Assembly: GCA_017798145.1 (NCBI GenBank)
Contig: CP059069.1
Coordinates: 2,031,226-2,095,225, forward strand
DNA from: Akkermansiaceae bacterium
GTDB taxonomy: Bacteria > Verrucomicrobiota > Verrucomicrobiia > Verrucomicrobiales > Akkermansiaceae
Length of the DNA stretch: 64,000 bases
Direction: 5' to 3'
The notes under the pieces were generated by a model. It did no database searches. It worked only from the letters and a program-made list of their open reading frames with translations, and was not told the DNA's origin. Positions 1,744 to 48,429 of this stretch are shown here, piece by piece. The position numbers and the translations under genes were made by a program. How positions within the stretch are numbered: position 1 is the stretch's first letter; each line of letters opens with the position of its first letter.

Positions 1744-4167
1744 TTACCTGCGGCGGCGCAGCAGGAGCAGCGCGCCGAGGCCGCTGAGAAGGAACGTGGA
1801 GGGCTCGGGGATGATCACCGCGTTCAGGCTGCCGGAGGTGAAGTAACCCGACTTGCCGTTTCCGAAGTCGTAGGCCGTTCCCTCGCTCAGGAACACGGTG
1901 CCGCCGAAATCGATGGAGAACGTGCCGTCGATGAGTTCGTAGGTGCCCGGTGCGGCGTTGAGCCAGTCCCAGCCGACGATGTCCTGGAAGGTGAGGTCGC
2001 CCAAGGTGAGGCTGCCACCCGTCAGGCCGAGGATGCCGGTGCTGTTCGCGGCGATGGTAGCGTTGGTGAGATCAAGCTTGCCGCTCTTCTCGATCGTGAG
2101 GCCGCTGCCCAAGGTTCCGGAACTTCCGTTGCTACCGATCGTCCCGTCGGCCTGTACGGTGACCGCGCTGTTGGCAAGGGCGCCGCTGACATAGAGAGTG
2201 CCTGCAGACACAATAGTTGCTTCGGAGTAGGTGTTGGCGGCGTTCGAGAGGGTGAGCGCACCACTGCCCGTCTTGGTCAAAGCAATCGAGCCCGTGCCAT
2301 CCGTAACGGCTCCCGAGATGGAGGAAGAGTTGTTGTTTCCCCCGATCAACAGGGTGTGGACACCCGCACCGGTCGTCTTGAATCCGCCACCACCGGCATC
2401 CGTCACCGTGCCGAAGCTGTAGGTGCCGGCGGAATTCAGCTCAACCGGAATCGCGCTGCTGATCTGCAGCGTGCCGTTGGGGAGCGAAGCGCTCCCGTTC
2501 GCGAATCTCATGCCGAGGCCGCCGGAGCCGGCGCTGGTGGTCCGCGAAACCACGGTTCCGGTGAATGCGGAGTTGTCGCCGTTTAGGAATAGGCGGTACA
2601 CATCGCTGCCGTCGGATCCTTGGAGCGTGCCGCTGCCGGTAAGATCCCCGGCAAGAGTCAGATTGATCGGGTTGGACGTTTGCGCCGTCAGCGTCACCCC
2701 GGAATTGATTGCGATGTCGTTGCTTAGCACCACGCCGTTCGTTGTGGCGCCCAGAGTGGCATTGCCCGTCACCGTCACGGCGCCCGAACCGAGAGCGCTT
2801 CCCGACGCAACGAGGACAACGCCATCCGCGATGTTCGTTCCACCGGTGTAGGTGTTGGCCTTGTCGAGGACAAGCGTTCCGGATCCGAGCTTGCTCAGGC
2901 CGATGATGCCGCCGCTGGTTCCGGTTGAATCGGCGATGGCATCGCCCTGGGTGAAGGTGCCGCCTGTGGCGGTGCCGGTATCGAGGCCGAGCTTGGCTCC
3001 GGCCTGCAGCCCCGCTGTGGCGGAGCCCGCCACCGAGATGTTACCGAGCAGGGTGTTCAGGCTGGCGGCGGTGAACCCGTCGGTTCCCGCGGAATCGACG
3101 TTCAGCGCCAAGGTGGCGCCGCTCTTTACGTTGATCTTGGCAGCCGTCCAGTTGGCGGGGGTGTTATCGTAGAGCGAAGCCTGGTTGGCGTACTGTAGCG
3201 TGCCCGCGGCCACCACGGTGTTGCCGGTATAGCTGCCGGTTCCTGAAATAATGAGGGTGCCGTTGCCGTCCTTGGTCAGCCCCCTCGTGCCGGTGTCCTG
3301 GCTGACACCGCCGCTGAGGGTCACCGTGGAGCCCGGCGCGATGACCGTGAAAGTCCGCGTGCTTCCCACCAGTTTGACGTCCCCCGATATATCGAAGTCG
3401 TTCGTCCCGCCCAGCCTCAGCCCGCCGGTTTCCACATCAATGGCGTTCGGCAGGACGATCCCGCCGGTCGTGGCACGGAGCTGGGCGCCCCTAGAAAGCA
3501 CCTTGCCTGCGCCCAAGGCGTTGTTGTGCCCCACATCCAAGAAACCGCCGGAACCGGTGGCGGCGACATTGCTGGAGGACGCGTTGACCGTCCCGTTGCC
3601 CAAAATGAAGTCGCCGGTGAAAGCGCTATCGCCGGTGAGGGTGAGCGTGCCCGTGCCCAGCTTGGTGAATCCGAATCCGGTTCCGCTTATCGGACGGACG
3701 ATGTTCAGTCCCGCATTGCCGTTGATCGTGGCGGTCAGGTTGCCGACCAATGCGATGTCGCCCTTCACCGTGCCGATGGTGTGGGTGGCGCTGGCCGCAT
3801 CGACGGTGATTGATGGACTGGCGCCTCCGAACGTCAGGGTTCTTGCGGTGGACGAGCTGTCGGTGTTGCTGCTCGCAAGGAACAGCGTCATCGCCGTGGT
3901 CGCGCTGCTGTTGAAAGTCAGCGAGCCGATCGTCCGGTCGGCGTCACCCAGGACGCTCTGGTTGTTGTTGATGGCACTGTAAAAGATGATATTCGCGTTT
4001 TCGTCGAACGTAAGTGCGGGATCGCCCGCCCAGTTTGCGCTCAACTGCCACGCCCTGGAAATTCCCGCTCCTGCGTCCCACGTGTAGTCTACGGCGCGCG
4101 CGTGGGAAGCGGCGAGGATTATGGCGCTCGGGATGAGGAATCGGCGGATGGGCTGGCGGGTTTTCAT
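1744..4167 (-). CDS. PEP-CTERM surface protein with autotransporter-type beta-strand repeats
   Basis: An 807-residue exported protein. Residues 1-25 form a signal peptide (MKTRQPIRRFL, a hydrophobic core, then SHARA before VDYTWDAG). The body holds many Gly/Thr/Ser-rich beta-helix repeats with motifs such as LTKTGSGALTLS and GTLYVSG, the autotransporter-associated beta-strand repeat. The C-terminus is a PEP-CTERM sorting signal: IPEPSTF, a Leu-rich membrane segment, RRRR. The family model is processing by an exosortase and display at the surface or in an extracellular matrix; no exosortase gene lies in this window. The ATG at 4165-4167 has no strong Shine-Dalgarno sequence, but it fits the signal peptide exactly. 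The specific role is unknown. Confidence 0.9.
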   Translation of the reverse strand: MKTRQPIRRFLIPSAIILAASHARAVDYTWDAGAGISRAWQLSANWAGDPALTFDENANIIFYSAINNNQSVLGDADRTIGSLTFNSSATTAMTLFLASSNTDSSSTARTLTFGGASPSITVDAASATHTIGTVKGDIALVGNLTATINGNAGLNIVRPISGTGFGFTKLGTGTLTLTGDSAFTGDFILGNGTVNASSSNVAATGSGGFLDVGHNNALGAGKVLSRGAQLRATTGGIVLPNAIDVETGGLRLGGTNDFDISGDVKLVGSTRTFTVIAPGSTVTLSGGVSQDTGTRGLTKDGNGTLIISGTGSYTGNTVVAAGTLQYANQASLYDNTPANWTAAKINVKSGATLALNVDSAGTDGFTAASLNTLLGNISVAGSATAGLQAGAKLGLDTGTATGGTFTQGDAIADSTGTSGGIIGLSKLGSGTLVLDKANTYTGGTNIADGVVLVASGSALGSGAVTVTGNATLGATTNGVVLSNDIAINSGVTLTAQTSNPINLTLAGDLTGSGTLQGSDGSDVYRLFLNGDNSAFTGTVVSRTTSAGSGGLGMRFANGSASLPNGTLQISSAIPVELNSAGTYSFGTVTDAGGGGFKTTGAGVHTLLIGGNNNSSSISGAVTDGTGSIALTKTGSGALTLSNAANTYSEATIVSAGTLYVSGALANSAVTVQADGTIGSNGSSGTLGSGLTIEKSGKLDLTNATIAANSTGILGLTGGSLTLGDLTFQDIVGWDWLNAAPGTYELIDGTFSIDFGGTVFLSEGTAYDFGNGKSGYFTSGSLNAVIIPEPSTFLLSGLGALLLLRRRR

Positions 4168-34779: not shown

Positions 34780-36756
34780 CTAAACACCACGGCGTTCAAC
34801 CATTGCGACAGCCCGGTCAATGACCGAACCCGGCACATTGATTCCCAGGTCTCTCGCCAGTTTTGGAATCGCGATCTCGGGGGCGGCCAGCAATTCTTCA
34901 TAATCAGCCGACAGGCAGGGATTTCCCCTCCCGATCCAATCGTCGATGCACTTATGGATGACTCGCTGCATCCTTTCCGGCTCCGGGAACCACCCGCGCC
35001 GCTCCAAGCCACGGATGGACTTTTCCAACGGCCTTTTCGCATGGATGAAAACCGTATCCTTGCCCCATGCCCTTCCTGTTTCAGGCAGGCACAGTCCGAG
35101 CAAGGGGTGTTTGACGCACAGCGCCGGCGCTTCCGTTCTGATCCGCGAGTGCCACTCGGCGAGCTCTGACACAAGTTGGTCGGGCGTAATACGCAGCGCC
35201 GTCCCCGGTTCATCAATGGCACGCACAAGGATGTCCCGCAGCGAAGCGGATTCGAAGAAATCCTCTCGGGTTGGCCTGGCGATATTGTACCCGAAACATT
35301 CCATGATCGATGACAAGAGCGAGGAGCCGGAGTCATAGGTGCCGATGATCGCGCAAGTCTGGCTTAACGCTTCTCCCCTTTCATTGCGCAGCCCTCCCGG
35401 CACACCGACTTTCCGATAAATCTTTTGGGTGCCGCGATACAGGGGCACCAGCGACTCTACGAATGCGGCTTCGAAAGCCTGAATGGCTTCCTTCGGTCGG
35501 CGGTGTGGCGAAATACTTCCTCCCCAGTCGTAATCGTCGAAAATCAGAATCCCACCGGGCCTCAGAAGCGGCCAGGACAGAACCGCATCCGTCAGAACAT
35601 CCGCTCCGCGGTGACTGCCATCGATGAACACCACATCGAAACTTTCCACCGCACCATCTGCGAGCATTCTTGTGAGAACTTCGAGCGACTTGCCCACATG
35701 CAGCCGCACCCGCCCCCCATGGCAGCCGCGGCGCGTGTTTTCCTCGAATAGCGCCCGCGTGTGCGGACCGACCTGTGGGGTCGTCGGATCTGCCAAATAA
35801 GGATCGATGGTATCCACCGTGGAATCCGGGTGGGTGAAAATTGAGTCCAGCATCACATTCGCACTGACACCATCGAAAGCGCCGATCTCCAGTGCCCGGA
35901 CGGGATGAGGACTGGCCACCCAGCGCAGCCAGACCCCGGGAAGCAACCGGTACCAGCCCCATTTCTTGTAATCGCGATACTTGCCGAGAGGGATTTTCTG
36001 CGGTTCGGATGTCGTCATCGTGAGTGGGTGATTTTGAAGTCGCGGAGCTGGTCTCGGGCTTTCCGCTGCCATTCCACGCAGTGCAGGCGAAGTTGTCCCT
36101 GTCCAACCCGCAGCGAGATCCCTTGCCACCCACGGGGCAAGCAGTTCCCTCAGGCCGTCCTCCCAGGGTGGCTTTGCTGCCATCCGGTGTTCCCAGGGCA
36201 TTTCCGGATAATTCCTGCCGGTGAGATGGCGCAGAACCGCTGGCATGATATGTAGATCGCCCAGCCCGAGGCAGGCAGCAAAGCACTCCTCCCGGCTACC
36301 CAGCCAAAGTGACTGCGGATCCGTATGCCATGCAATGGCCGGCGCCCTGCGGTAATCCGCGAGCCGTTCGCAGAAGTCGCGGAAAGACCGTGCCGGTGCC
36401 TCGCGCTCCCGGAGCACGCGGTGCTGGTAACAGGAACGTATCCGCTCGTATGGATCCCGATGCACAGCAATCACTGGCAAACCCCTATCGAAGGCAGCCT
36501 TGCAAGTCATCCGCAGACCCGCTGCGCCACTCCACTTGTGCGTGGCTTCGCCGGCCTTCGGTTCACGGCCATGCCTGAGGTGGAAGAGGAACCCAACGAT
36601 GCTCAGCGTCCCCACCTTAGGAGCAGCGGCGATGCCGAAGCCCAGTTCAACATCAACAAATACTTCCCTGTTCGCTGGCGAGGGCGGCATGTCCCGGTTG
36701 CCATCGCAGTGCGCCGGGTCTCCGGCGCTTCGCCCGTTTGCCGATCCATCCCCCAT
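34780..36756 (-). CDS. Sulfotransferase-methyltransferase-sulfotransferase three-domain fusion
   Basis: About 658 residues in one uninterrupted frame. Domain 1 (about 25-240) is sulfotransferase-like: AAAPKVGTLSIVGFL is the PAPS phosphate loop and VIAVHRDPYERIRSCYQHR the 3'-phosphate motif. Domain 2 (about 250-440) is a class I methyltransferase: ALEIGAFDGVSANVML, DVVFIDGSHRGADVLTDAV and LRPGGILIFDDYDW. Domain 3 (about 440-658) is again sulfotransferase-like: IIGTYDSGSSLLSSIMECFG and HAKRPLEKSIRGLERRGWFP. The ATG at 36756 lies two bases after the stop of the upstream lipoprotein gene. The frame extends upstream in overlap with that gene and is not used. It could modify a surface glycan or small molecule; the substrate is unknown. 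Confidence 0.7.
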   Translation of the reverse strand: MGDGSANGRSAGDPAHCDGNRDMPPSPANREVFVDVELGFGIAAAPKVGTLSIVGFLFHLRHGREPKAGEATHKWSGAAGLRMTCKAAFDRGLPVIAVHRDPYERIRSCYQHRVLREREAPARSFRDFCERLADYRRAPAIAWHTDPQSLWLGSREECFAACLGLGDLHIMPAVLRHLTGRNYPEMPWEHRMAAKPPWEDGLRELLAPWVARDLAAGWTGTTSPALRGMAAESPRPAPRLQNHPLTMTTSEPQKIPLGKYRDYKKWGWYRLLPGVWLRWVASPHPVRALEIGAFDGVSANVMLDSIFTHPDSTVDTIDPYLADPTTPQVGPHTRALFEENTRRGCHGGRVRLHVGKSLEVLTRMLADGAVESFDVVFIDGSHRGADVLTDAVLSWPLLRPGGILIFDDYDWGGSISPHRRPKEAIQAFEAAFVESLVPLYRGTQKIYRKVGVPGGLRNERGEALSQTCAIIGTYDSGSSLLSSIMECFGYNIARPTREDFFESASLRDILVRAIDEPGTALRITPDQLVSELAEWHSRIRTEAPALCVKHPLLGLCLPETGRAWGKDTVFIHAKRPLEKSIRGLERRGWFPEPERMQRVIHKCIDDWIGRGNPCLSADYEELLAAPEIAIPKLARDLGINVPGSVIDRAVAMVERRGV

Positions 36757-36758
36757 CT

Positions 36759-38219
36759 TCAGTTCCCATTCTGCCTCTCCGCTTTGGCAATGGCGGCCTC
36801 GATGCGTTGCTTGGTCTTCGTATTCCGGATGTAGGATGCCCACTGGCGGGCGGTCGCCGTATCACCTTGTCCCATGGCTTGGGTGGCGAATGCCGCAGCC
36901 ACATATTGCGACTTCTCGGCTGGCAGGGATTTCCAATTCTCCTGATACCACTCTTGCGCCTTGTTGAAATCCTTCGAAACCCAGGTCACCATCGCCTCCT
37001 CGAGCCAGTAATCGGCGTAATTTGATTCCCCGGAAACGATGGCCTGTACCGTGCCCGCCGGATCCGTGCTCGCCTCCTTGCGCAGAGTATCCCGCTCGGC
37101 AGTCCATATTTCGCCCTCTATCTGCTTCCTTGCTGACGCATCAACAATCGATTCCGCCCACTTCCGGGCATCTTCCAAATTTTTCGTTCGGATTGAAACC
37201 TTGGCAAATCCACTAACGAGTTCGTCCTTTGTCGGCTGGGAAAACTCCTTCAGATGGATTTGATACCACAATTCTGCAGCCTTCGGATCAAACTGCAACC
37301 ACCGCACAAATACCCTCTCGATTCCCTCAGGTTTCCTGCTATCAATAACAATTGACATCGCCCGAGCTGGGTCAACTTTCGCCATCAATCCCGCCACATC
37401 TACTAACATTCTTGAGTCTTCTGTTTTGCTCTCGTCGGAGTTCAGGATAGCCCAAACCTCAAACGGAGCGTCCTCCGCGACCTTAAGGAGCAAATCCGAA
37501 ACCATATGCCCCTCGCCCCCAAGAGCCGAATCACAAGCTTTTGCTATCTGCAAAGCGCCATCCAACTCCCCGCTTACATCTTCCCCCTTAGTTACCAAAG
37601 CCTGTATGCGCATACCCAAACCATTGAGTAAAATAGGAAGCGAATCTGCATCCAATACCTTCATAATGCAATTCAAATCCTTCAAATCGTCCATTCTTGC
37701 AATTGCGCACGATATTCCAGCACTGGCAGATGCTAGTTCCGACGTCTCAGTGAGTTTGCTTCTGAGTGCCAGCAAATCGCCAATTGAAGTGGTCTTGGAC
37801 GAAAAAACATCCATCAATAAGATGTCGCGGAAGTCCCCTGGGCCAAATGATGCTGTAACAAGACCCATCGCAGCCTCTGCCCCATCCGTTGCGCACATTT
37901 GCGATAAAACTATTTTTAGCAAGTAGGCTCTTTCGTGTTGCGAACCTTGGAACCCGACTGCGGCATTCCACTTTTCCGCAGTATTTTGGTTGCCCATATC
38001 TTCGATCATCCGTTTTATGTCGGAGAAACCATTAAGATTTTTTGGGATCGGCTTACCTCTTACCTCCCGGGATTCCGGGACTTGTGTGCGACGCGACAAT
38101 TCAGGGGTGGGCTTTCGCGCCGATCTGTCATTCTTATCTTGCCGGGTGTCTTCCTGGCATCCTACGAAGAGCAAAATCCCCATCAGCTTTGCAATCGTAG
38201 TGAAATGAAAGGAACTCAT
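36759..38219 (-). CDS. Lipoprotein of unknown function with helical repeats
   Basis: About 486 residues from MSSFHFTTIAKLMGILLFVGC, a lipoprotein signal with the lipobox Cys at 21, followed by a charged linker. The rest is helical with Trp/Ala motifs such as ARKWAESIVD, DYWLEEAMVTWV and NKAQEWYQENW that recur like TPR or Sel1 units. An AAGGGTGG just before the ATG supports this start over the longer frame to 38312. It lies directly before the sulfotransferase fusion. The 5' half (37.3-38.3 kb) is noticeably AT-richer than the surroundings. The function is unknown. Confidence 0.7.
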   Translation of the reverse strand: MSSFHFTTIAKLMGILLFVGCQEDTRQDKNDRSARKPTPELSRRTQVPESREVRGKPIPKNLNGFSDIKRMIEDMGNQNTAEKWNAAVGFQGSQHERAYLLKIVLSQMCATDGAEAAMGLVTASFGPGDFRDILLMDVFSSKTTSIGDLLALRSKLTETSELASASAGISCAIARMDDLKDLNCIMKVLDADSLPILLNGLGMRIQALVTKGEDVSGELDGALQIAKACDSALGGEGHMVSDLLLKVAEDAPFEVWAILNSDESKTEDSRMLVDVAGLMAKVDPARAMSIVIDSRKPEGIERVFVRWLQFDPKAAELWYQIHLKEFSQPTKDELVSGFAKVSIRTKNLEDARKWAESIVDASARKQIEGEIWTAERDTLRKEASTDPAGTVQAIVSGESNYADYWLEEAMVTWVSKDFNKAQEWYQENWKSLPAEKSQYVAAAFATQAMGQGDTATARQWASYIRNTKTKQRIEAAIAKAERQNGN

Positions 38220-38331
38220 CCACCCTTCAACAGTGAAAGATTCTGACTTTGACGCCATAGATAGATTACGGCACCAATTTTTTATGAAATTAAGATCGAT
38301 GCGCTTTTTCATAATACTATTAGATTATTCA

Positions 38332-38691
38332 TTATCTGGTGTCGCACATCTGAGCGGTTAATTCACTTTTATGTAACGAGCACACCACGAATTGATCCTG
38401 CGCAATTCCGGTATCAGGATCCGGCGTGATGGATTTTCCACAAATTTCTGAATTGTTTGCACATGATGCTTTCGCATTCGCATACCAACAAAGAGTCCAA
38501 GCGTATACATCACCAATTAATATATCTTTGGTTTTGACGACGCAGGGCTTAGGTGGGGGTGGCGGGTTATAGTTACTGGCCCGCACCAGCCCCGAGAAAA
38601 TGGTCATACTGGATACGGCAACGGCGGCGACGACGCTGCGCTTGATGAAGGATCGGCGTGTGAGGTTGCTGGACGTCTGAATGTCGTTCAT
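38332..38691 (-). CDS. Small Tat-exported Cys-rich protein
   Basis: About 119 residues from MNDIQTSSNLTRRSFIKRS, a Tat signal (RRSFIK) with a hydrophobic stretch VVAAVAVSSMTIFSGLVRA. The mature part begins with a Pro run (NYNPPPPPKP) and holds six Cys (CVVK, LCWY, SCANN, EICG, VCSL, MCDT) in about 75 residues, suggesting disulfides or metal binding. No family is recognised. The gene is AT-richer than its neighbours. It is divergent from the COG0523 GTPase gene. Confidence 0.6.
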   Translation of the reverse strand: MNDIQTSSNLTRRSFIKRSVVAAVAVSSMTIFSGLVRASNYNPPPPPKPCVVKTKDILIGDVYAWTLCWYANAKASCANNSEICGKSITPDPDTGIAQDQFVVCSLHKSELTAQMCDTR

Positions 38692-38762
38692 AGTTTTTTG
38701 GAAAAGGTTAGAAATAACCATTGACAGAAGTGTGGGGGGGGGGAGGCAAGTTTTATTTCGTG

Positions 38763-39926
38763 ATGAGTGAATTTATTTTTACGGAGGCAGGGAGCGAAGA
38801 CCGCCGGATGGTGCTGATCGGTGGCTTCCTGGGAGCGGGAAAAACGACCTTGATCGGTCATCTCAGCCGCTGGCTGGAGCGGAGCGGCCTGCAGGTGGGG
38901 CTGGTCACGAACGATCAGGGTAAGGGTTTGATGGATACGGATTCCGCCAGGCGGGTAAGCTCACCGGGCGGAGTGGAGGAAATCACCGGGGGGTGTTTTT
39001 GCTGTCGCCTCGATGATCTGGTGGGTGCGGTGGAGCGCATGGACAGGGAAAGCCGCCCCGATGTGATTGTGGCGGAGCCGGTGGGCAGCTGCACCGATCT
39101 GGTCGCGACAGTCATCCTGCCGCTGGAGGCGGTTTACCAGGTTCCTTTCACGCTTTCCCCTTACTCCGTGGTCTTGGACGCCCGGCGTGCGCTTGCGACT
39201 TTGGGCGGGCGGCGCAATGCGAGGGATTTCCACCGGGACGTGGGCTATGTGTACCGGAAGCAGATCGAGGAGGCTGAGTGGCTGGTGGTGAACAAAACGG
39301 ATCTTCTGGAGGGAGAGGATCTCCAGGATCTGGAGTCGCGGCTGGCTGGGGCATATCCGGGGAAACGGGTGTTCCTCGTTTCGGGCAAATCGGGCGTGGG
39401 ATTGGAAGAGTGGTTCGCGGCGCTGATCGGCGCCCGGAGTGCGCCGAAGGATGTAATGGAGGTGGACTACGAACGCTATGCACGTGGCGAGGCCATGCTG
39501 GGCTGGGTCAACTCCGAGGCACGCTGCCGCGTGATCGGTGCTGCGGAGGACGGCTTCGATTGGGGAGCTTGGCTCATGGAAACGGGAGGGAAAATTTCGG
39601 AGGAACTCGCCCGGCAGGGCAACGAGGTGGGGCACTTCAAGATGAGCGTGGAGACAGGGAGCCGCCGCTGGCGTCTGCACCAGGTGATGAGCGGCGAGAA
39701 CCCGCTCCTCCATGAGGATGCACTCATGACACCAACGGAGGAAGAAGGTCGCCTGCTGGTGAACCTGCGCGCCGAGGGAGATGCGGAAATGCTGGAGTCA
39801 ATCGTCGATTCCGCCTTCCGCAATCAGGATCTCGTATCGGTCGGGTTCCTGAACCGTGCCGCGTTCCAACCAGCGAAACCGGTACCCACCCACCGGATTG
39901 CTGCGTTGGCACCGCCGTTGGCGTGA
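38763..39926 (+). CDS. COG0523 (CobW/G3E) metal-linked GTPase
   Basis: About 387 residues from MSEFIFTEAG. It has Walker A GGFLGAGKTTL near residue 20, the metal-binding GGCFCCRLDDL (CxCC) near 76-86, the AEPVGSCTDL switch, and NKTDLLEG for guanine specificity near 175. The C-terminal half is not the usual CobW C domain. COG0523 proteins act as metal chaperones or insertases for zinc, cobalt or nitrile hydratase-type enzymes. The metal and client are unknown here, as no metal-uptake gene is adjacent. The glycosyltransferase gene follows 52 bases later. Confidence 0.8.
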   Translation: MSEFIFTEAGSEDRRMVLIGGFLGAGKTTLIGHLSRWLERSGLQVGLVTNDQGKGLMDTDSARRVSSPGGVEEITGGCFCCRLDDLVGAVERMDRESRPDVIVAEPVGSCTDLVATVILPLEAVYQVPFTLSPYSVVLDARRALATLGGRRNARDFHRDVGYVYRKQIEEAEWLVVNKTDLLEGEDLQDLESRLAGAYPGKRVFLVSGKSGVGLEEWFAALIGARSAPKDVMEVDYERYARGEAMLGWVNSEARCRVIGAAEDGFDWGAWLMETGGKISEELARQGNEVGHFKMSVETGSRRWRLHQVMSGENPLLHEDALMTPTEEEGRLLVNLRAEGDAEMLESIVDSAFRNQDLVSVGFLNRAAFQPAKPVPTHRIAALAPPLA

Positions 39927-39978
39927 TGCTCCCTCCTACTGGACTCAAATATCCGATCGAAAAGACAAGAAACAAAAT

Positions 39979-42075
39979 ATGGGCTGGACCGACGCATTTC
40001 CCGTTTTCACCGAAGAGATGGTGGATGATTTCGAAGCATTCGCGACTCCGGAGGATAGGGCGCAATTGGAAGACTGGTATGGCACGGAGCGTGTGCTCAA
40101 TGCACAGCCGGCAAAGCAGGACATCTTGAGCATGTCGCTATTCTGGAAAAACGTGCGCGAGGGCGATCCCGAACTGCCCGCTCCGACGCGGGAGATTCTC
40201 CGGAACGCGCAGGAAATGGGTTTGCCGACACGTTTCAATCCCTGGGATCATTATGTGAAGCCGCTCCTCGAGTTGGTTCCAGAGCTATCAGTGAGGTTTC
40301 CCGGTGTTGCATTCCGCGTGTATCTCGCCAAGGACATGGAGTTCCTTGCCGACGAATTGGCTGCCGCGGGAAGTGAGGTGCATGTGATGAAAAGCTCCTC
40401 GATCCATTTCGCGCCCGGCGGCCTGTGGCGTTTCCTGCCTTTCAGCGAGGAGGGCAAGCGGGTGACGGTGATCGACGTGGACCGGCTCAACGAATTGGAG
40501 GCCGATCTGTTGCGCTCAAGAACAATGGGGGAAGCCGGCCTGGGTGCATGGCGCGTCCCCGTCCCTTCAGACCTGGGCAGGGACAGGAAGGTGTGTTACC
40601 TGCCGTTCATGGGCTGCCAGTTCGGCGTGCTAGGCGGTCTGATGGATGCTCGGCAACTGCTGGACGCATTCACCTGGCATGCGTTGTGCGGGAATGTCGA
40701 TCCCATGGTGATCTTCCCCGGCTGCGGACCGCTGGAACTCCAAGCACACAAATGGCCGGTTTACGGGTTCGACGAGTTCTTCATGACCGTCGCCGCCTAT
40801 CCGCGGCTTGCCCAGCACGGGATGCTGACTTTCGTTCCGACCTTCACGAAGTCGCAGTTGCTTTCGCTGGATGTGGAATACGTCACCTGGGGAAACCCGA
40901 ACAGCGAACTGGTCTATTTCCCGGCGGAGGGGTGCTGCGGGATGGCTGAGGATGCGCCTGACGCTTGGGTCGCGCCTCAAACGGCCCAAGATTTCCCGGC
41001 ACCAGTCGCGGCATCCGATAGTCAGACGCCGGAAGAGCCGGGGCCGATGCCGAAGGTGGCGTTCCTATTCCTGACGCAGGGTGATGTCCATCATCCCCAG
41101 GTGTGGGAGGAATATTTTGAAAAGGCGAATGGTCACGCGGTCATCCACGCCCACACCCAAGACATCAGCCGTCTGTCCGATCACTCGCTTCTGGCGAGCC
41201 GCCAGATCCGCAACAAGGTGGAGACGCAATGGGGAACGCTTTCACTCGTCATGGCGACACGTGAACTGCTCATGGCCGCGCTCGGAGACAAGGAGGTCAC
41301 CCATTTCGTGCTGGTTTCCGAAAGTTGCGTACCGGTGCGGCCTTTCGCCGCGCTGAGTTCCAGCCTCCGGCTCGGCGCCCGCTCGCGGATGAAGGTCAAA
41401 CCTTGGGGGGAAGTGAGGAGGACAAACATTCTCAAGGCGCAGCGCCTGGAGAACCTGCCCGGTATCCGCAAGGAACTCGCCCACTTCCAGGAGCAATGGA
41501 TGTGCCTGAGCCGGGAGGATGCGCTGCTCGTTACAACAAAGGATTGGACTTCTTCATTCGATAGGGTCTTTGCACCGGACGAAGCCTATTTTGCCACGGT
41601 TCTAGCGGCATCCGGCAAGGCACCGCTGCAGGCTGTGGCAAACCGCCCTATCACTTGGACGGACTGGAAGGATGGGGGCGCGCATCCCGGGGAGTTCCAA
41701 CGTGTGCCGCCCCGCGTCGTCGCACAGATCGCGGAAAGCGGCTGCTTTTTTGCGAGAAAATTCCACAAGGGTCGGACATCGGAAGGTGGGGGCTGCATCG
41801 GACGTAAAAGGCGCAATCCGGATCGACACCCTAATTTTCGCCGAGCGCAGCGCATCCTAGACCAGCTCGAAAACGGTCACTTCCGGGCGGACGTTGAAGC
41901 GCACCTGATGGAGGTAGCCGAGGGCACGGTTTATGTAGAGGTCACGCCCGCCCTTGAGGCTGAAATGCCCGGCGGTGTAAAGTTTGTTCGCCACGGGGAG
42001 AACCGGTGGGGCAAGGAAGGGCGGCTTGCACTGGCCGCCGTGGGTGTGGCCGGAGAGGATCCAGCCTTGGTATGA
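39979..42075 (+). CDS. Glycosyltransferase fusion with C-terminal core-2/I-branching (GT14) domain
   Basis: About 698 residues from MGWTDAFPVFTEEM. The N-terminal half (to about 345) looks like a GT-A-type transferase: VAFRVYLAKDMEFLADEL, GGLWRFLPFSEEGKRVTVIDVDR and a C-rich EGCCGM. After a Pro-rich linker, VAFLFLTQGDVHHPQVWEEYF, IRNKVETQWGTLSLVMATREL and THFVLVSESCVPVRPF are the core-2/I-branching beta-1,6-GlcNAc transferase pattern. The natural end is probably FARKFHKG plus a short tail near 41807; the last 90 residues run antisense through the phosphatase gene, which suggests a one-base frameshift. A cytosolic role in building a surface glycan is inferred. Confidence 0.7.
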   Translation: MGWTDAFPVFTEEMVDDFEAFATPEDRAQLEDWYGTERVLNAQPAKQDILSMSLFWKNVREGDPELPAPTREILRNAQEMGLPTRFNPWDHYVKPLLELVPELSVRFPGVAFRVYLAKDMEFLADELAAAGSEVHVMKSSSIHFAPGGLWRFLPFSEEGKRVTVIDVDRLNELEADLLRSRTMGEAGLGAWRVPVPSDLGRDRKVCYLPFMGCQFGVLGGLMDARQLLDAFTWHALCGNVDPMVIFPGCGPLELQAHKWPVYGFDEFFMTVAAYPRLAQHGMLTFVPTFTKSQLLSLDVEYVTWGNPNSELVYFPAEGCCGMAEDAPDAWVAPQTAQDFPAPVAASDSQTPEEPGPMPKVAFLFLTQGDVHHPQVWEEYFEKANGHAVIHAHTQDISRLSDHSLLASRQIRNKVETQWGTLSLVMATRELLMAALGDKEVTHFVLVSESCVPVRPFAALSSSLRLGARSRMKVKPWGEVRRTNILKAQRLENLPGIRKELAHFQEQWMCLSREDALLVTTKDWTSSFDRVFAPDEAYFATVLAASGKAPLQAVANRPITWTDWKDGGAHPGEFQRVPPRVVAQIAESGCFFARKFHKGRTSEGGGCIGRKRRNPDRHPNFRRAQRILDQLENGHFRADVEAHLMEVAEGTVYVEVTPALEAEMPGGVKFVRHGENRWGKEGRLALAAVGVAGEDPALV

Positions 42076-44080: not shown

Positions 44081-45487
44081 CTAATTGCTCAAGCTGTCCG
44101 GCCACGGATGTGGGGCCTTCGTCGTCCACGCCGGCCGGGAAGCGGCGGTGAGATCCGCGTCGCGCTTTTTCATGAGAGCGGTGAGTTCGGCGACCTTGTC
44201 GGGAAGCCTTTCGGCGAGGTTGTTCTGCTCCCCGAGATCCTCATCGAGCTTGAAGAGGAAGGTTCCGACGGTCTTTTCGAAATAGCTCTTCTGGCCTTCG
44301 GGCAGGATGAGGAGTTTCCACGGCCCCTTGCGGATGCCGGTCAGCAGGCCCCGGCTGGAGTAGTAGAGAAACTCGTCACGCGGGGACGGCCCGTCGCCGG
44401 TGAGCTCTGCGGAGATGTCCATGCCGTCAATGATGTGGTCGGTGGGGAGGGACTCCCCGGCGAGGGCGGCGATGGTGGGGAGAAGGTCGATGGTGGAGGC
44501 CAGTTCGTCGCTGCTGCTGCCGGCGGGGACGCGCCCCGGGGCCCAGATGATGGCGGGGACCCGTTGGCCGCCCTCGAAGTTGGTCCCCTTGCCGGCGCGG
44601 AGCGGTTTGGCCGAGCCGCCGTGATTCTTGAACTGGAGCCAAGGGCCGTTGTCGCTGGTGAAGATCACCCAGGTGTTGTCGGCGAGGCCTTCCCGGCGCA
44701 CCGCATCCATGAGGCGGCCCACCTCGGCGTCGATGTGTTCGATGACGCACTTGTAGGCGTTCCGCGGGTCGGGGTCGTAGGCGTCCTCGGGGACGAAAAG
44801 CGGGATGTGGGGCATGCTGTGCGGCAGGTAGAGGAAGAACGGCCGTTCCTTGTTGGCGGTGACGAACTCGATCGCCTTGTCGGTGTAGCGGCGGGTTATG
44901 GTGCGCTGATTGACCGGGAGCTCGATGATCTCCTCGTTGCTGACGAGGGGCGTCTTCCAGGCCTTCGTCTCGCGATCCTGGTTGATCCACGATTCGTCGC
45001 TCGGCACCCGCGTCTTGCCCTCGTAGGCGGTGTGGTTCATGTCGTTCGAGTAGGGGATCCCGTAATAACTGTCGAAGCCCTGGGCGCGGGGGAGCACCTC
45101 CGGGTAATGACCGAGGTGCCACTTGCCGATGCAGGCGGTGGCGTAGCCGGCGGCCTTCAGGTGGTCGGCGATGGTGCGCTCCTCCGGGTTGAGCCCCCGT
45201 TGGCTTGTGGGGAAGATGACTCCCTGGTGCATGTTGATGCGCTTCGGGTAACAACCGGTCAGGAGTCCGGCGCGGGAAGGGGTGCAGACCGGGCTGGGAA
45301 CCATGAAGTTCGTCAGCCGGCGCCCTTCCTTCGCCATCCGGTCGAGGTGCGGGGTCCGGATCGCCTCCGAGCCGAAGGAGCCGAGGTCGTTGAAACCCTG
45401 GTCGTCGGTGAAGATGATGATGAAATTCGGCTTGGCCGCCGCGCAGAGCGGCAGGAGGGCGAGGAGGAGCAGGAGTATCGGTTTCAA
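44081..45487 (-). CDS. Arylsulfatase-type sulfatase (S1 family)
   Basis: 468 residues if started at the TTG of 45485-45487, which gives an ideal signal peptide (KPILLLLLALLPLCAAA). The longer frame starts with another TTG at 45565. NFIIIFTDDQGFNDLG supplies the metal-binding Asp pair. CTPSRAGLLTG (C-x-P-S-R) is the formylglycine site, to be oxidised by a maturase not encoded here. GKWHLGHYPE and FTSDNGPWL follow. It is exported and removes sulfate esters from glycans or other compounds. The MBL-fold gene upstream on the same strand is 317 bases away. Confidence 0.88.
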   Translation of the reverse strand: MKPILLLLLALLPLCAAAKPNFIIIFTDDQGFNDLGSFGSEAIRTPHLDRMAKEGRRLTNFMVPSPVCTPSRAGLLTGCYPKRINMHQGVIFPTSQRGLNPEERTIADHLKAAGYATACIGKWHLGHYPEVLPRAQGFDSYYGIPYSNDMNHTAYEGKTRVPSDESWINQDRETKAWKTPLVSNEEIIELPVNQRTITRRYTDKAIEFVTANKERPFFLYLPHSMPHIPLFVPEDAYDPDPRNAYKCVIEHIDAEVGRLMDAVRREGLADNTWVIFTSDNGPWLQFKNHGGSAKPLRAGKGTNFEGGQRVPAIIWAPGRVPAGSSSDELASTIDLLPTIAALAGESLPTDHIIDGMDISAELTGDGPSPRDEFLYYSSRGLLTGIRKGPWKLLILPEGQKSYFEKTVGTFLFKLDEDLGEQNNLAERLPDKVAELTALMKKRDADLTAASRPAWTTKAPHPWPDSLSN

Positions 45488-45804
45488 TGGACTGACTGCG
45501 AGGAATTTGCTTTCGCCGGTGGCTCCTGAAACAGCATCCGAGTCGGGCCGGGATATGGGGGACAAGGAGATTTCGGAGCGGAGATCTTTGCCCGGCAGCG
45601 TAGCCCTCCGGGTCGCCTTGCCAAGATCGTTTTTGGGAGCGGTTTTCTTGCGAATCTTTGCCGGCTCTCAGGAGACGTCGGGCATCAGAGTCCGGACGTG
45701 ATCGGTGGCGGTTGTGTCATGGCATTCCTGCCGCCTGTCTTGGAGACAGACGGCATATGTTCGTATTCGATAACCCGCCGATAGAAAACAAAGTGGGGCT
45801 TTTC
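45488..45804. other. Intergenic region between the sulfatase and the MBL-fold gene
   Basis: No gene is supported. Apart from the hairpin at 45729-45755 no structure is recognised. The sulfatase promoter is presumably on the minus strand here. Confidence 0.35.
45729..45755. repeat. Palindrome/hairpin downstream of the MBL-fold gene
   Basis: TGCCGCCTGTCT, a TGG loop and AGACAGACGGCA form a 12-base stem with one mismatch. It lies 50 bases past the stop of the minus-strand gene at 45805. It may be a terminator or a dispersed intergenic palindrome. Confidence 0.5.
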
Positions 45805-46836: not shown

Positions 46837-47028
46837 GGAAATAGAACGGTGGGTGGTGGGATGAAGTTTCGCTGGAGGGAAACTTTGCTGAGCCTTGTGT
46901 CGCGTTCTGGCTCGCGATCCGTCGGGGAGGTCTGGCGCTTCGTTGTTTCATTGGAAGGGTTGCACCTGCGTAGGTTCCGGAAATATGATCGATTCCCATC
47001 GTCAGGCTCGTAGGTTTTGCCCATGCCC

Positions 47029-48429
47029 ATGAAATTCCTGACGATCCTGTTATGCCTGTCCGGCTTCGCCATCGCGGCGGAAAAGCCGAACGTCCTTTTT
47101 CTTTTCGCCGACGACATGACCTGGAAGGCGGTGAACGCCCTTTCCGACGAGGACATCGACACACCGAACCTCGACCGCCTCGCCGCACGCGGCACGAGCT
47201 TCTCCCATGCCTACAACTCCGGAGGCTGGCACGGCGCGATCTGCGTCGCCAGCCGCACGATGCTCAACACCGGACTCCAGATGTGGAGGGCGAAGGAGGC
47301 GGAAAAACGGCTGAAGCAGGATTTCGTGGCAACCAAGCGCACTTGGTCCCAGCAGATGTCCGCCGCCGGTTACCGCACCTGCATGTCCGGCAAGTGGCAC
47401 GTCGGCATGCCGACCAAGGCGATCTTCGACGAGGTTCTCAACGAACGCCCCGGCATGCCGTCCGACGGCAAGTCCGCCTACGAACGCCCGGTCGAGGGCC
47501 AGCCCGATCCCTGGAGCCCCACCGACACTTCACTGGGCGGATTCTGGAAAGGCGGGAAACACTGGAGCGAGGTGATCGTCGACGACTTCGAGACCTTCCT
47601 CGGCTCAAAGGACACGCGGCCGTGGTTCATGTATCTCGCCTTCAACGCGCCGCACGACCCGCGTCAGTCGCCGCAGGAGTTCCTCGACCTCTATCCGCTC
47701 GATCGCATGAAAGTCCCCGCGAATTTCCTGCCGGTCTATCCCTACCGCGATCCAATGGGCGCACCCCAGAGCCTGCGCGATGAAAAGCTCGCGCCCTCAC
47801 CGCGCACGGAGTTCGCCGTAAAGACCCACCGCCGCGAATACTACGCGCTCGTCACCCATCTCGATGCACAGATCGGCCGCATCCTCGACCGGCTTGAGAA
47901 AGACCCGGCAGGTGCGAACACCTACATCTTCTTCACCGCCGACCACGGGCTTTCCTGCGGCGAGCACGGCCTGATGGGGAAACAGAACATGTACGGCGAG
48001 GCATTGCGCGTGCCCTTCATCGTCGCCGGCCCCGGCGTGCCGGAGGGCAAGAAAATCGACAGCCCGATCTACCTCCAGGATGTGATGCCCACCTCGCTCG
48101 CCCTCGCCGGCGCGGAGATTCCGGAAAGCGTCGAGTTCGAGGATCTGCGCCCGATTTGGGAAGGAAAGGGCACACCCCGCACCTGCGCCTACGGAGCCTA
48201 CATGGATTCCCAGCGCATGATCGAGAAGGACGGCAAGAAGCTCATCCTCTACCCCAAGGCCAAGGTCGCACGCGTGTTCGACCTCGTGAAAGACCCCGTC
48301 GAAAAGGACGATCTCTTCGCCACGCCGGAAGGCAGGAAAATCGCCTCGGAACTGTTTCCCGTCCTCCTGGCCGAGCAGAAGCGTTTCGGCGATCCCATGG
48401 ATCTGAAAGCGATCTACCCGGAGCTTTAG
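47029..48429 (+). CDS. Sulfatase with CxAxR formylglycine motif
   Basis: 466 residues from MKFLTILLCLSGFAIA, a signal peptide. NVLFLFADDMTWKAVNAL carries the metal Asp pair. ICVASRTMLNTG places the modified Cys in C-V-A-S-R, the Ala variant of the C-x-(P/A)-x-R motif. GKWHVGMP, FTADHGLSCGEHGLMGK and the C-terminal FDLVKDPVEKDDLFATPEG follow. It is an S1-type periplasmic sulfatase, with features of the choline-sulfatase/iduronate-sulfatase-like group. Earlier ATGs at 47017 and 47023 are possible. It lies upstream of the sugar ABC operon. Confidence 0.86.
   Translation: MKFLTILLCLSGFAIAAEKPNVLFLFADDMTWKAVNALSDEDIDTPNLDRLAARGTSFSHAYNSGGWHGAICVASRTMLNTGLQMWRAKEAEKRLKQDFVATKRTWSQQMSAAGYRTCMSGKWHVGMPTKAIFDEVLNERPGMPSDGKSAYERPVEGQPDPWSPTDTSLGGFWKGGKHWSEVIVDDFETFLGSKDTRPWFMYLAFNAPHDPRQSPQEFLDLYPLDRMKVPANFLPVYPYRDPMGAPQSLRDEKLAPSPRTEFAVKTHRREYYALVTHLDAQIGRILDRLEKDPAGANTYIFFTADHGLSCGEHGLMGKQNMYGEALRVPFIVAGPGVPEGKKIDSPIYLQDVMPTSLALAGAEIPESVEFEDLRPIWEGKGTPRTCAYGAYMDSQRMIEKDGKKLILYPKAKVARVFDLVKDPVEKDDLFATPEGRKIASELFPVLLAEQKRFGDPMDLKAIYPEL

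Follow-up and report, generated by a model that had tools for sequence, protein, structure and literature searches.

A 658-codon frame in an Akkermansiaceae genome probably joins two coupled genes, for a sulfotransferase-like protein and for a methyltransferase fused to a second sulfotransferase-like domain

Background

A comparable arrangement has been described in Pontiella sulfatireligans, where stf and met genes lie together with glycosyltransferases in one exopolymer cluster, putatively for a sulfated glycosaminoglycan (PMC7356697). Fusions of a sulfotransferase with a methyltransferase, including Methyltransf_24, were looked for in the open-licence literature and no account was found. 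The locus analyzed here is part of a 64,000-nucleotide stretch of DNA from an Akkermansiaceae bacterium (the window), in which one open frame comprises a sulfotransferase-like N-domain, a methyltransferase and a sulfotransferase-like C-domain (Table 1). The domains are of ordinary kinds and their arrangement is unusual.

Table 1. Features of the locus, with residues of the 658-codon frame in parentheses
Feature	Position in window	Strand	Basis or remark
658-codon frame: N sulfotransferase-like, methyltransferase, C sulfotransferase-like	34780..36756	-	ORF reading
C-domain (residues 451-658), PF13469-like	34783..35406	-	Homology and hhalign
KRPLEKSIR, altered 3'-phosphate motif of C-domain	35011..35037	-	hhalign and alignment with L084
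GTYDSGSS, degenerate P-loop of C-domain	35320..35343	-	GPYRSGTS at same place in L084
Class I SAM methyltransferase, O-methyltransferase-like (residues 247-450)	35407..36018	-	PF13578
ATGA at junction	36015..36018	-	ATG is residue 247; TGA in +1 frame
Junction tail (residues 223-246)	36019..36090	-	Codon usage favours +1 over reading frame
N-domain (residues 30-222), PF03567-like	36091..36669	-	Homology and hhalign
HRDPYERIRS of N-domain	36433..36462	-	Aligns with VRNPWDRLVS of PF03567 proteins
PKVGTLSI of N-domain	36598..36621	-	Aligns with PKTAGQSI / PKCANSTV loop of PF03567 proteins
TPR-like lipoprotein gene	36759..38312	-	Ends two bases ahead of ATG of 658-codon frame
Small Tat-signal protein gene	38332..38721	-	Homologue near same lipoprotein gene in both relatives
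CobW-type GTPase gene, divergent neighbour	38721..39926	+	PF02492
Core-2/I-branching-type glycosyltransferase gene	39856..42075	+	PF02485, E 2.5e-24

The frame and its surroundings

The frame starts at the ATG at 36756 and runs for 658 codons without a stop, while a GTG at 36843 offers an upstream alternative start giving 687 aa, but is located inside the lipoprotein gene. The latter is identified by a lipoprotein signal judged by eye and by a sub-threshold Pfam match to TPR. The two relatives, MAG Tous-C4TDCM (genome G163; locus L018, the same as L025) and Luteolibacter marinus NBU1238 (G157; L019, the same as L026), each have a homologue of it, with 31-32% identity, ahead of their N gene. 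The preliminary description of this DNA had reported a single open frame coupled to a lipoprotein gene, a class I methyltransferase in its middle and sulfatases in the same genome. All of this was borne out, with PF13578 matching the middle third and PF00884 matching two genes of the window (44081-45565 and 47017-48429).

On the divergent side, the CobW-type GTPase gene has a 57% identical counterpart at the same place in L. marinus, beside which a homologue of the branch-type glycosyltransferase gene is also in place; this conservation is visible in L. marinus only, as the Tous-C4TDCM contig starts too close. The glycosyltransferase gene probably has its true start at about 39974, and the first ~400 residues of its frame match no Pfam family at E<=1. 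Across 34780-42075, five ORFs have a third-position GC of 0.53-0.73, compared with 0.74-0.88 in 44 of the 50 other script-picked ORFs, for which foreign origin or weak expression is a possible explanation.

The host genome assembly consists of one contig of 4.39 Mb and is 98.5% complete. It encodes an APS kinase (E 1.2e-54), an enzyme of PAPS supply, and searches of it with PF00685, PF03567 and PF13469 gave no match, so that the two outer domains would be outliers missed by these models. The whole 658-residue protein likewise matched nothing in NCBIfam at E<=1.

The two sulfotransferase-like domains

Profile comparison places the two outer domains in different sulfotransferase branches, the N-domain being PF03567-like and the C-domain PF13469-like. 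The comparison sets were built from the longest frame through the middle of each locus, with no Pfam recheck. Two of the 15 PF03567 loci (L038 and L044) were dropped, where the script-picked frame looked wrong, as were nine of the 30 PF13469 loci, in which no P-loop pattern was found; this second omission biases the PF13469 set in favour of canonical P-loops. The PF03567 set was supplemented with two proteins of L034 and L035 and the PF13469 set with two of L034, for totals of 15 and 23. As controls, reversed profiles and 100 column shuffles were run for each of the four pairs, and none scored above 2.1.

The N-domain of the window protein has no Pfam match at E<=1 and thus falls under the PF03567 gathering cut-off, while its two relatives, 57-59% identical to it and encoded by separate genes, reach PF03567 at E 0.12 and 0.15 (12.6 and 12.9 bits, cut-off 22). 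In hhalign, the N-domain (three sequences) aligned with the 15 PF03567-type proteins at a probability of 97.2 over 170 columns (reversed profile 1.4; maximum of 100 shuffles 1.1), and with the 23 PF13469-type proteins at 49.9 over 23 columns around the 3'-phosphate motif. The position of PKVGTLSI is taken to be the 5'-phosphosulfate loop and that of HRDPYERIRS, invariant across the window N-domain and its two relatives, presumably corresponds to the 3'-phosphate-binding motif. A PDB sequence search with the N profile returned only 3rnl, a sulfotransferase, at E 0.17, and an AlphaFold2 model from a 2-row alignment had a mean pLDDT of 35.4, too low to be interpreted. These alignments support the placement of the N-domain in a PF03567-like branch with recognizable PAPS motifs.

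The C-domain also has no Pfam match at E<=1 and lies under the PF13469 gathering cut-off, while a stand-alone gene product in G337, of the same order, shares 37% identity with it over 188 aa and reaches PF13469 at E 2.5e-5 (25.1 bits, cut-off 27). With hhalign, the C-domain (two sequences) aligned with the 23 PF13469-type proteins, a set chosen by P-loop pattern, at a probability of 96.1 over 175 columns (maximum of 100 shuffles 1.0), and with the PF03567-type proteins at 1.1 over 27 columns. A further relative, L084, matches PF13469 at E 4.5e-8, shares 24% identity with the C-domain (BLAST E 8e-6) and adjoins frames read by eye as glycosyltransferase-like. In the P-loop, arginine is replaced by aspartate in the window and by asparagine in G337, whose homologue carries LYNSGSS and RPLETSIR. 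In RPLEKSIR of the window, the residue opposite the usual serine is arginine by hhalign and glycine or glutamine beside L084, and never serine. The P-loop base and this serine are, we assume, the usual PAPS-site residues. A PDB sequence search with the C-domain gave nothing at E<=10, a search of viral contigs with the C profile gave 106 pattern matches with no relative among them, and an AlphaFold model of the methyltransferase-C part from a 2-row alignment had a mean pLDDT of 41.1, likewise too low for a reading of the fold. The evidence supports a PF13469-like branch with a degenerate P-loop, in which the C-domain probably serves as a docking domain or is vestigial.

Both flanks had been put forward as sulfotransferase modules, an identity that can be kept for each, with the reservation that they are not equivalent: they fall in different branches and the C-domain is degenerate. 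Two sulfotransferase activities in one protein are predicted to be unlikely, because the C-domain lacks the usual P-loop base in both the window and G337 and is truncated in the closest relative.

Two loci elsewhere deserve mention. In G337, the C-domain homologue and four genes above Pfam sulfotransferase cut-offs (PF03567, PF13469, PF00685 and PF17784) occur within 5 kb (L034:4105-9007). In G723, a 1735-aa frame (L089:5222-10429) has an N-terminal PF13469 sulfotransferase followed by WbsX, group 1 and family 2 glycosyltransferase domains, with PF13469, PF14307, PF00534 and PF00535 all above cut-off.

The methyltransferase domain

The middle third is, judged by its sequence, a class I methyltransferase. 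It matches PF13578 (Methyltransf_24) at E 2.2e-18 (67.5 bits against a cut-off of 26.3) and PF01596 (Methyltransf_3) at E 2.6e-7, also above cut-off, contains motif I as LEIGAFDG, and aligns with the O-methyltransferases 3r3h and 3cbg of the PDB at E 2e-5. Its counterpart in Tous-C4TDCM is 73% identical. In the same genus, a frame spanning 664 residues or more (open frame 916; L002:22-2016) combines an N-terminal part without a Pfam match with a methyltransferase-like part that is 33% identical to the window methyltransferase and below the Pfam cut-off.

Distribution and gene structure in relatives

The genome samples searched (73 of the genus, 260 of the family, and 386, 387, 377 and 141 of the order or phylum) overlap. 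The whole protein found matches in 9 of the 73 genus genomes including its own, the other eight lying entirely within the methyltransferase, and in nine plasmid records, each spanning only residues 286-455 (the methyltransferase plus no more than five further residues). The N-domain alone was found at E<=0.01 in 4 of the 260 family genomes, namely its own, G163 (58%), G157 (58%) and G128, where the match is weak and contains stops; in the species genome collection, two loci were detected, L025 and L026. The C-domain was found in 4 of the 260 family genomes (its own, G163 at 3e-19, and weakly G169 and G061) and in 5 of 386 order genomes (its own, G337 at 1e-30, and three weak). In profile searches, the N-domain matched 5 genomes out of 387 and 1 out of 141, and the C-domain 6 out of 377, the best besides the window's own being 9.1e-5. 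Ten weak matches (G128, G169, G061, G272, G476, G160, G537, G615, G164 and G568) were kept outside the comparison. The preliminary description had proposed a search for the same architecture, and in none of these genus, family and order/phylum samples was a second genome found with all three parts in one frame, with the weak long-frame matches of G128, G061, G615, G164 and G568 left unread.

Both relatives whose neighbouring genes were read, which are the only two with a strong N-domain match, encode the N-domain as a separate gene, beside which a methyltransferase-C gene is present in only one. In Tous-C4TDCM, the N gene occupies 2143-2763 (206 aa) and shares four bases, ATGA, with the methyltransferase-C gene at 2760-3623 (287 aa). 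The latter has GGGAGG ahead of its ATG, and its C part lacks about 120 residues, the P-loop among them. The methyltransferase-C fusion is thus present in two genomes, that of the window and that of Tous-C4TDCM. In L. marinus, the N gene ends in CGATGA, its stop overlapping the ATG of the next gene, which is broken over three frames and occurs directly behind the N gene with a UDP-galactopyranose mutase remnant (PF03275; L026:6088-7087, equivalent to L019:7069-8068). The broken gene is homologous to residues 50-258 of a glycosyltransferase-like protein of G039, whose C-terminal part resembles the window methyltransferase (33% identity; PF13578 at 23.1 bits against a cut-off of 26.3).

The junction

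The methyltransferase starts with the ATG within CGATGACG, and the window junction reads CGATGA, with a TGA in the +1 frame at the position of the N stop in both relatives; an ATG is followed by A by chance about one time in four. Homology of the N-domain is kept in the reading frame to about residue 223, near which PF03567 proteins end. From there to residue 246, the three codon positions of the reading frame have a GC of 0.75/0.67/0.42, compared with 0.64/0.46/0.65 for the methyltransferase; in +1 this stretch has a normal pattern. Frame preference inside the N-domain and the methyltransferase is normal. In the codon model, +1 is favoured by 0.545 per codon. Of the 2939 leave-one-out coding windows, 6 are as extreme, and 71 if either shifted frame is counted; in an earlier in-sample run, superseded by this one, the figures were 0 among 1076 windows for all genes and 0.2% among 468 for nearby genes. 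Among 5000 dinucleotide shuffles, 172 reached the +1 preference and 304 the +1 score, and of 1274 intergenic windows 311 equalled or exceeded the tail in frame spread and 166 did so in the score of the best frame. The junction tail fits in-frame coding poorly. The choice between slipped coding and captured non-coding sequence is less certain, and a linker rich in proline, alanine, arginine and serine, as this tail is, may score poorly anyway. No purine-rich ribosome-binding site is visible upstream of the internal ATG in the window.

Origin and proposed role

The locus probably derives from two translationally coupled genes joined by a one-base slip, whose products tailor a surface polysaccharide; the confidence placed in this reading overlaps with that in a natural fusion and in an assembly artefact, both of which are branches of it. 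The first gene would encode a PF03567-like sulfotransferase moving sulfate from PAPS to a glycan, and the second a class I methyltransferase carrying, as a fusion, a PF13469-like domain stripped of the usual PAPS-site residues. We infer that the stop of the first gene was put out of frame by a net slip of one base within its dispensable tail, so that both genes are read as one, either through a very recent mutation, yielding a real sulfotransferase-methyltransferase-sulfotransferase protein, or through an assembly error. The N fusion, seen once, is probably recent or artefactual. The single polypeptide proposed in the preliminary description is therefore upheld as far as the open frame goes, and is called into question by the separate N genes of both relatives and by the ATGA kept with its stop out of frame. 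The junction of two genes by error, named there as the opposing case, finds partial backing in the same separate N genes and in the four-base ATGA overlap.

A sequencing error merging two genes that are intact and separate in the organism is possible, at somewhat less than an even chance. It would account for the separate N genes in both relatives and for the ATGA that persists at the junction with its TGA in +1, but the assembly is a single, 98.5% complete contig (error rate unmeasured), and the same locus shows apparently genuine decay in the relatives, in the broken gene of L. marinus and the truncated C-domain of Tous-C4TDCM, so that real frameshifts are expected there too.

A natural fusion, in which a real three-domain enzyme couples glycan sulfation and methylation in one polypeptide, is unlikely, being at odds with the unfused genes of both readable relatives, with the coding usage at the junction and with the failure to find a second three-part frame in the genus, family and order/phylum samples (five weak long-frame matches unread). 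On its side are the 658 open codons in such an assembly, the homology of all three domains to conserved cores in one frame, and the internal ATG without a ribosome-binding site, whereas Tous-C4TDCM has GGGAGG. Such a missing site would be expected of a settled real fusion, and to that extent counts against the preferred reading. We would likewise regard as doubtful a single polypeptide in which a PF03567-like sulfotransferase is active and is joined to an O-methyltransferase and to a dead, glycan-holding sulfotransferase-like domain, fused via a slip across the ATGA overlap and caught soon after.

A decaying locus, from which selection is gone and where neither activity is used, is improbable: the N-domain and methyltransferase cores are intact, with 57-73% identity across genera, and frame preference is normal within both, even though the C-domain is truncated in Tous-C4TDCM and has altered motifs, the gene after the N gene is broken over three frames in L. 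marinus, and the N-domain occurs in just 4 of 260 family genomes, once weakly. Two further candidates were rejected, namely two copies of one sulfotransferase domain, since hhalign puts the outer domains in different branches, and a chance open frame, since the methyltransferase is far above cut-off and separate genes elsewhere share 57-59% identity with the N-domain and 37% with the C-domain.

Under the preferred reading of two coupled genes joined by a slip, tailoring of a surface glycan is the probable role. The methyltransferase may methylate the same sugar that the N-domain would sulfate, or a neighbouring one, the C-domain would no longer be catalytic and may bind the acceptor, and the enzymes together would probably sulfate and O-methylate a surface polysaccharide. 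The sulfation and methylation of a surface polymer suggested earlier are thus retained as plausible glycan tailoring, with two sulfotransferase activities made unlikely by the C-domain motifs. The glycan context consists of the branch-type glycosyltransferase gene nearby, of the UDP-galactopyranose mutase remnant and broken gene that follow the N gene in L. marinus, and of C-domain relatives that adjoin glycosyltransferase-like frames (L084) or are fused with glycosyltransferases (G723). A complete glycan cluster was not found. A true three-part frame would be a fusion that has only just arisen, across an ATGA overlap; an artefactual one would illustrate that one base can yield an apparently new architecture.

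Comparison with known systems

The P. sulfatireligans cluster, from the same phylum, resembles this locus in having a sulfotransferase gene together with one or more methyltransferase genes; compared by description, it differs in that its genes are separate in the legend of Figure 5, and no fusion is mentioned in the passages on it (PMC7356697). The N-domain is like PF03567 (Sulfotransfer_2) in the 170-column profile alignment, the PKVG and RDPxxRxxS motifs and the domain end, and unlike it in scoring below the Pfam cut-off. The C-domain is like PF13469 (Sulfotransfer_3) over 175 columns, with the G337 homologue two bits under the cut-off, and unlike it in the P-loop change from arginine to aspartate and in having no serine in the 3'-phosphate motif. 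The two would thus represent divergent sulfotransferase-like branches missed by Pfam, in a genome blank for PF00685, PF03567 and PF13469 (PF17784 and others being outside that search). LEIGAFDG, FIDG and DDY of the window methyltransferase align with 3r3h and 3cbg, with Asp-Asp where these carry Asp-Asn. Compared with the O-methyltransferases of PF13578 and PF01596, the window methyltransferase has a C-terminal sulfotransferase-like fusion, and a methyltransferase fused to such a domain is an addition to the known arrangements.
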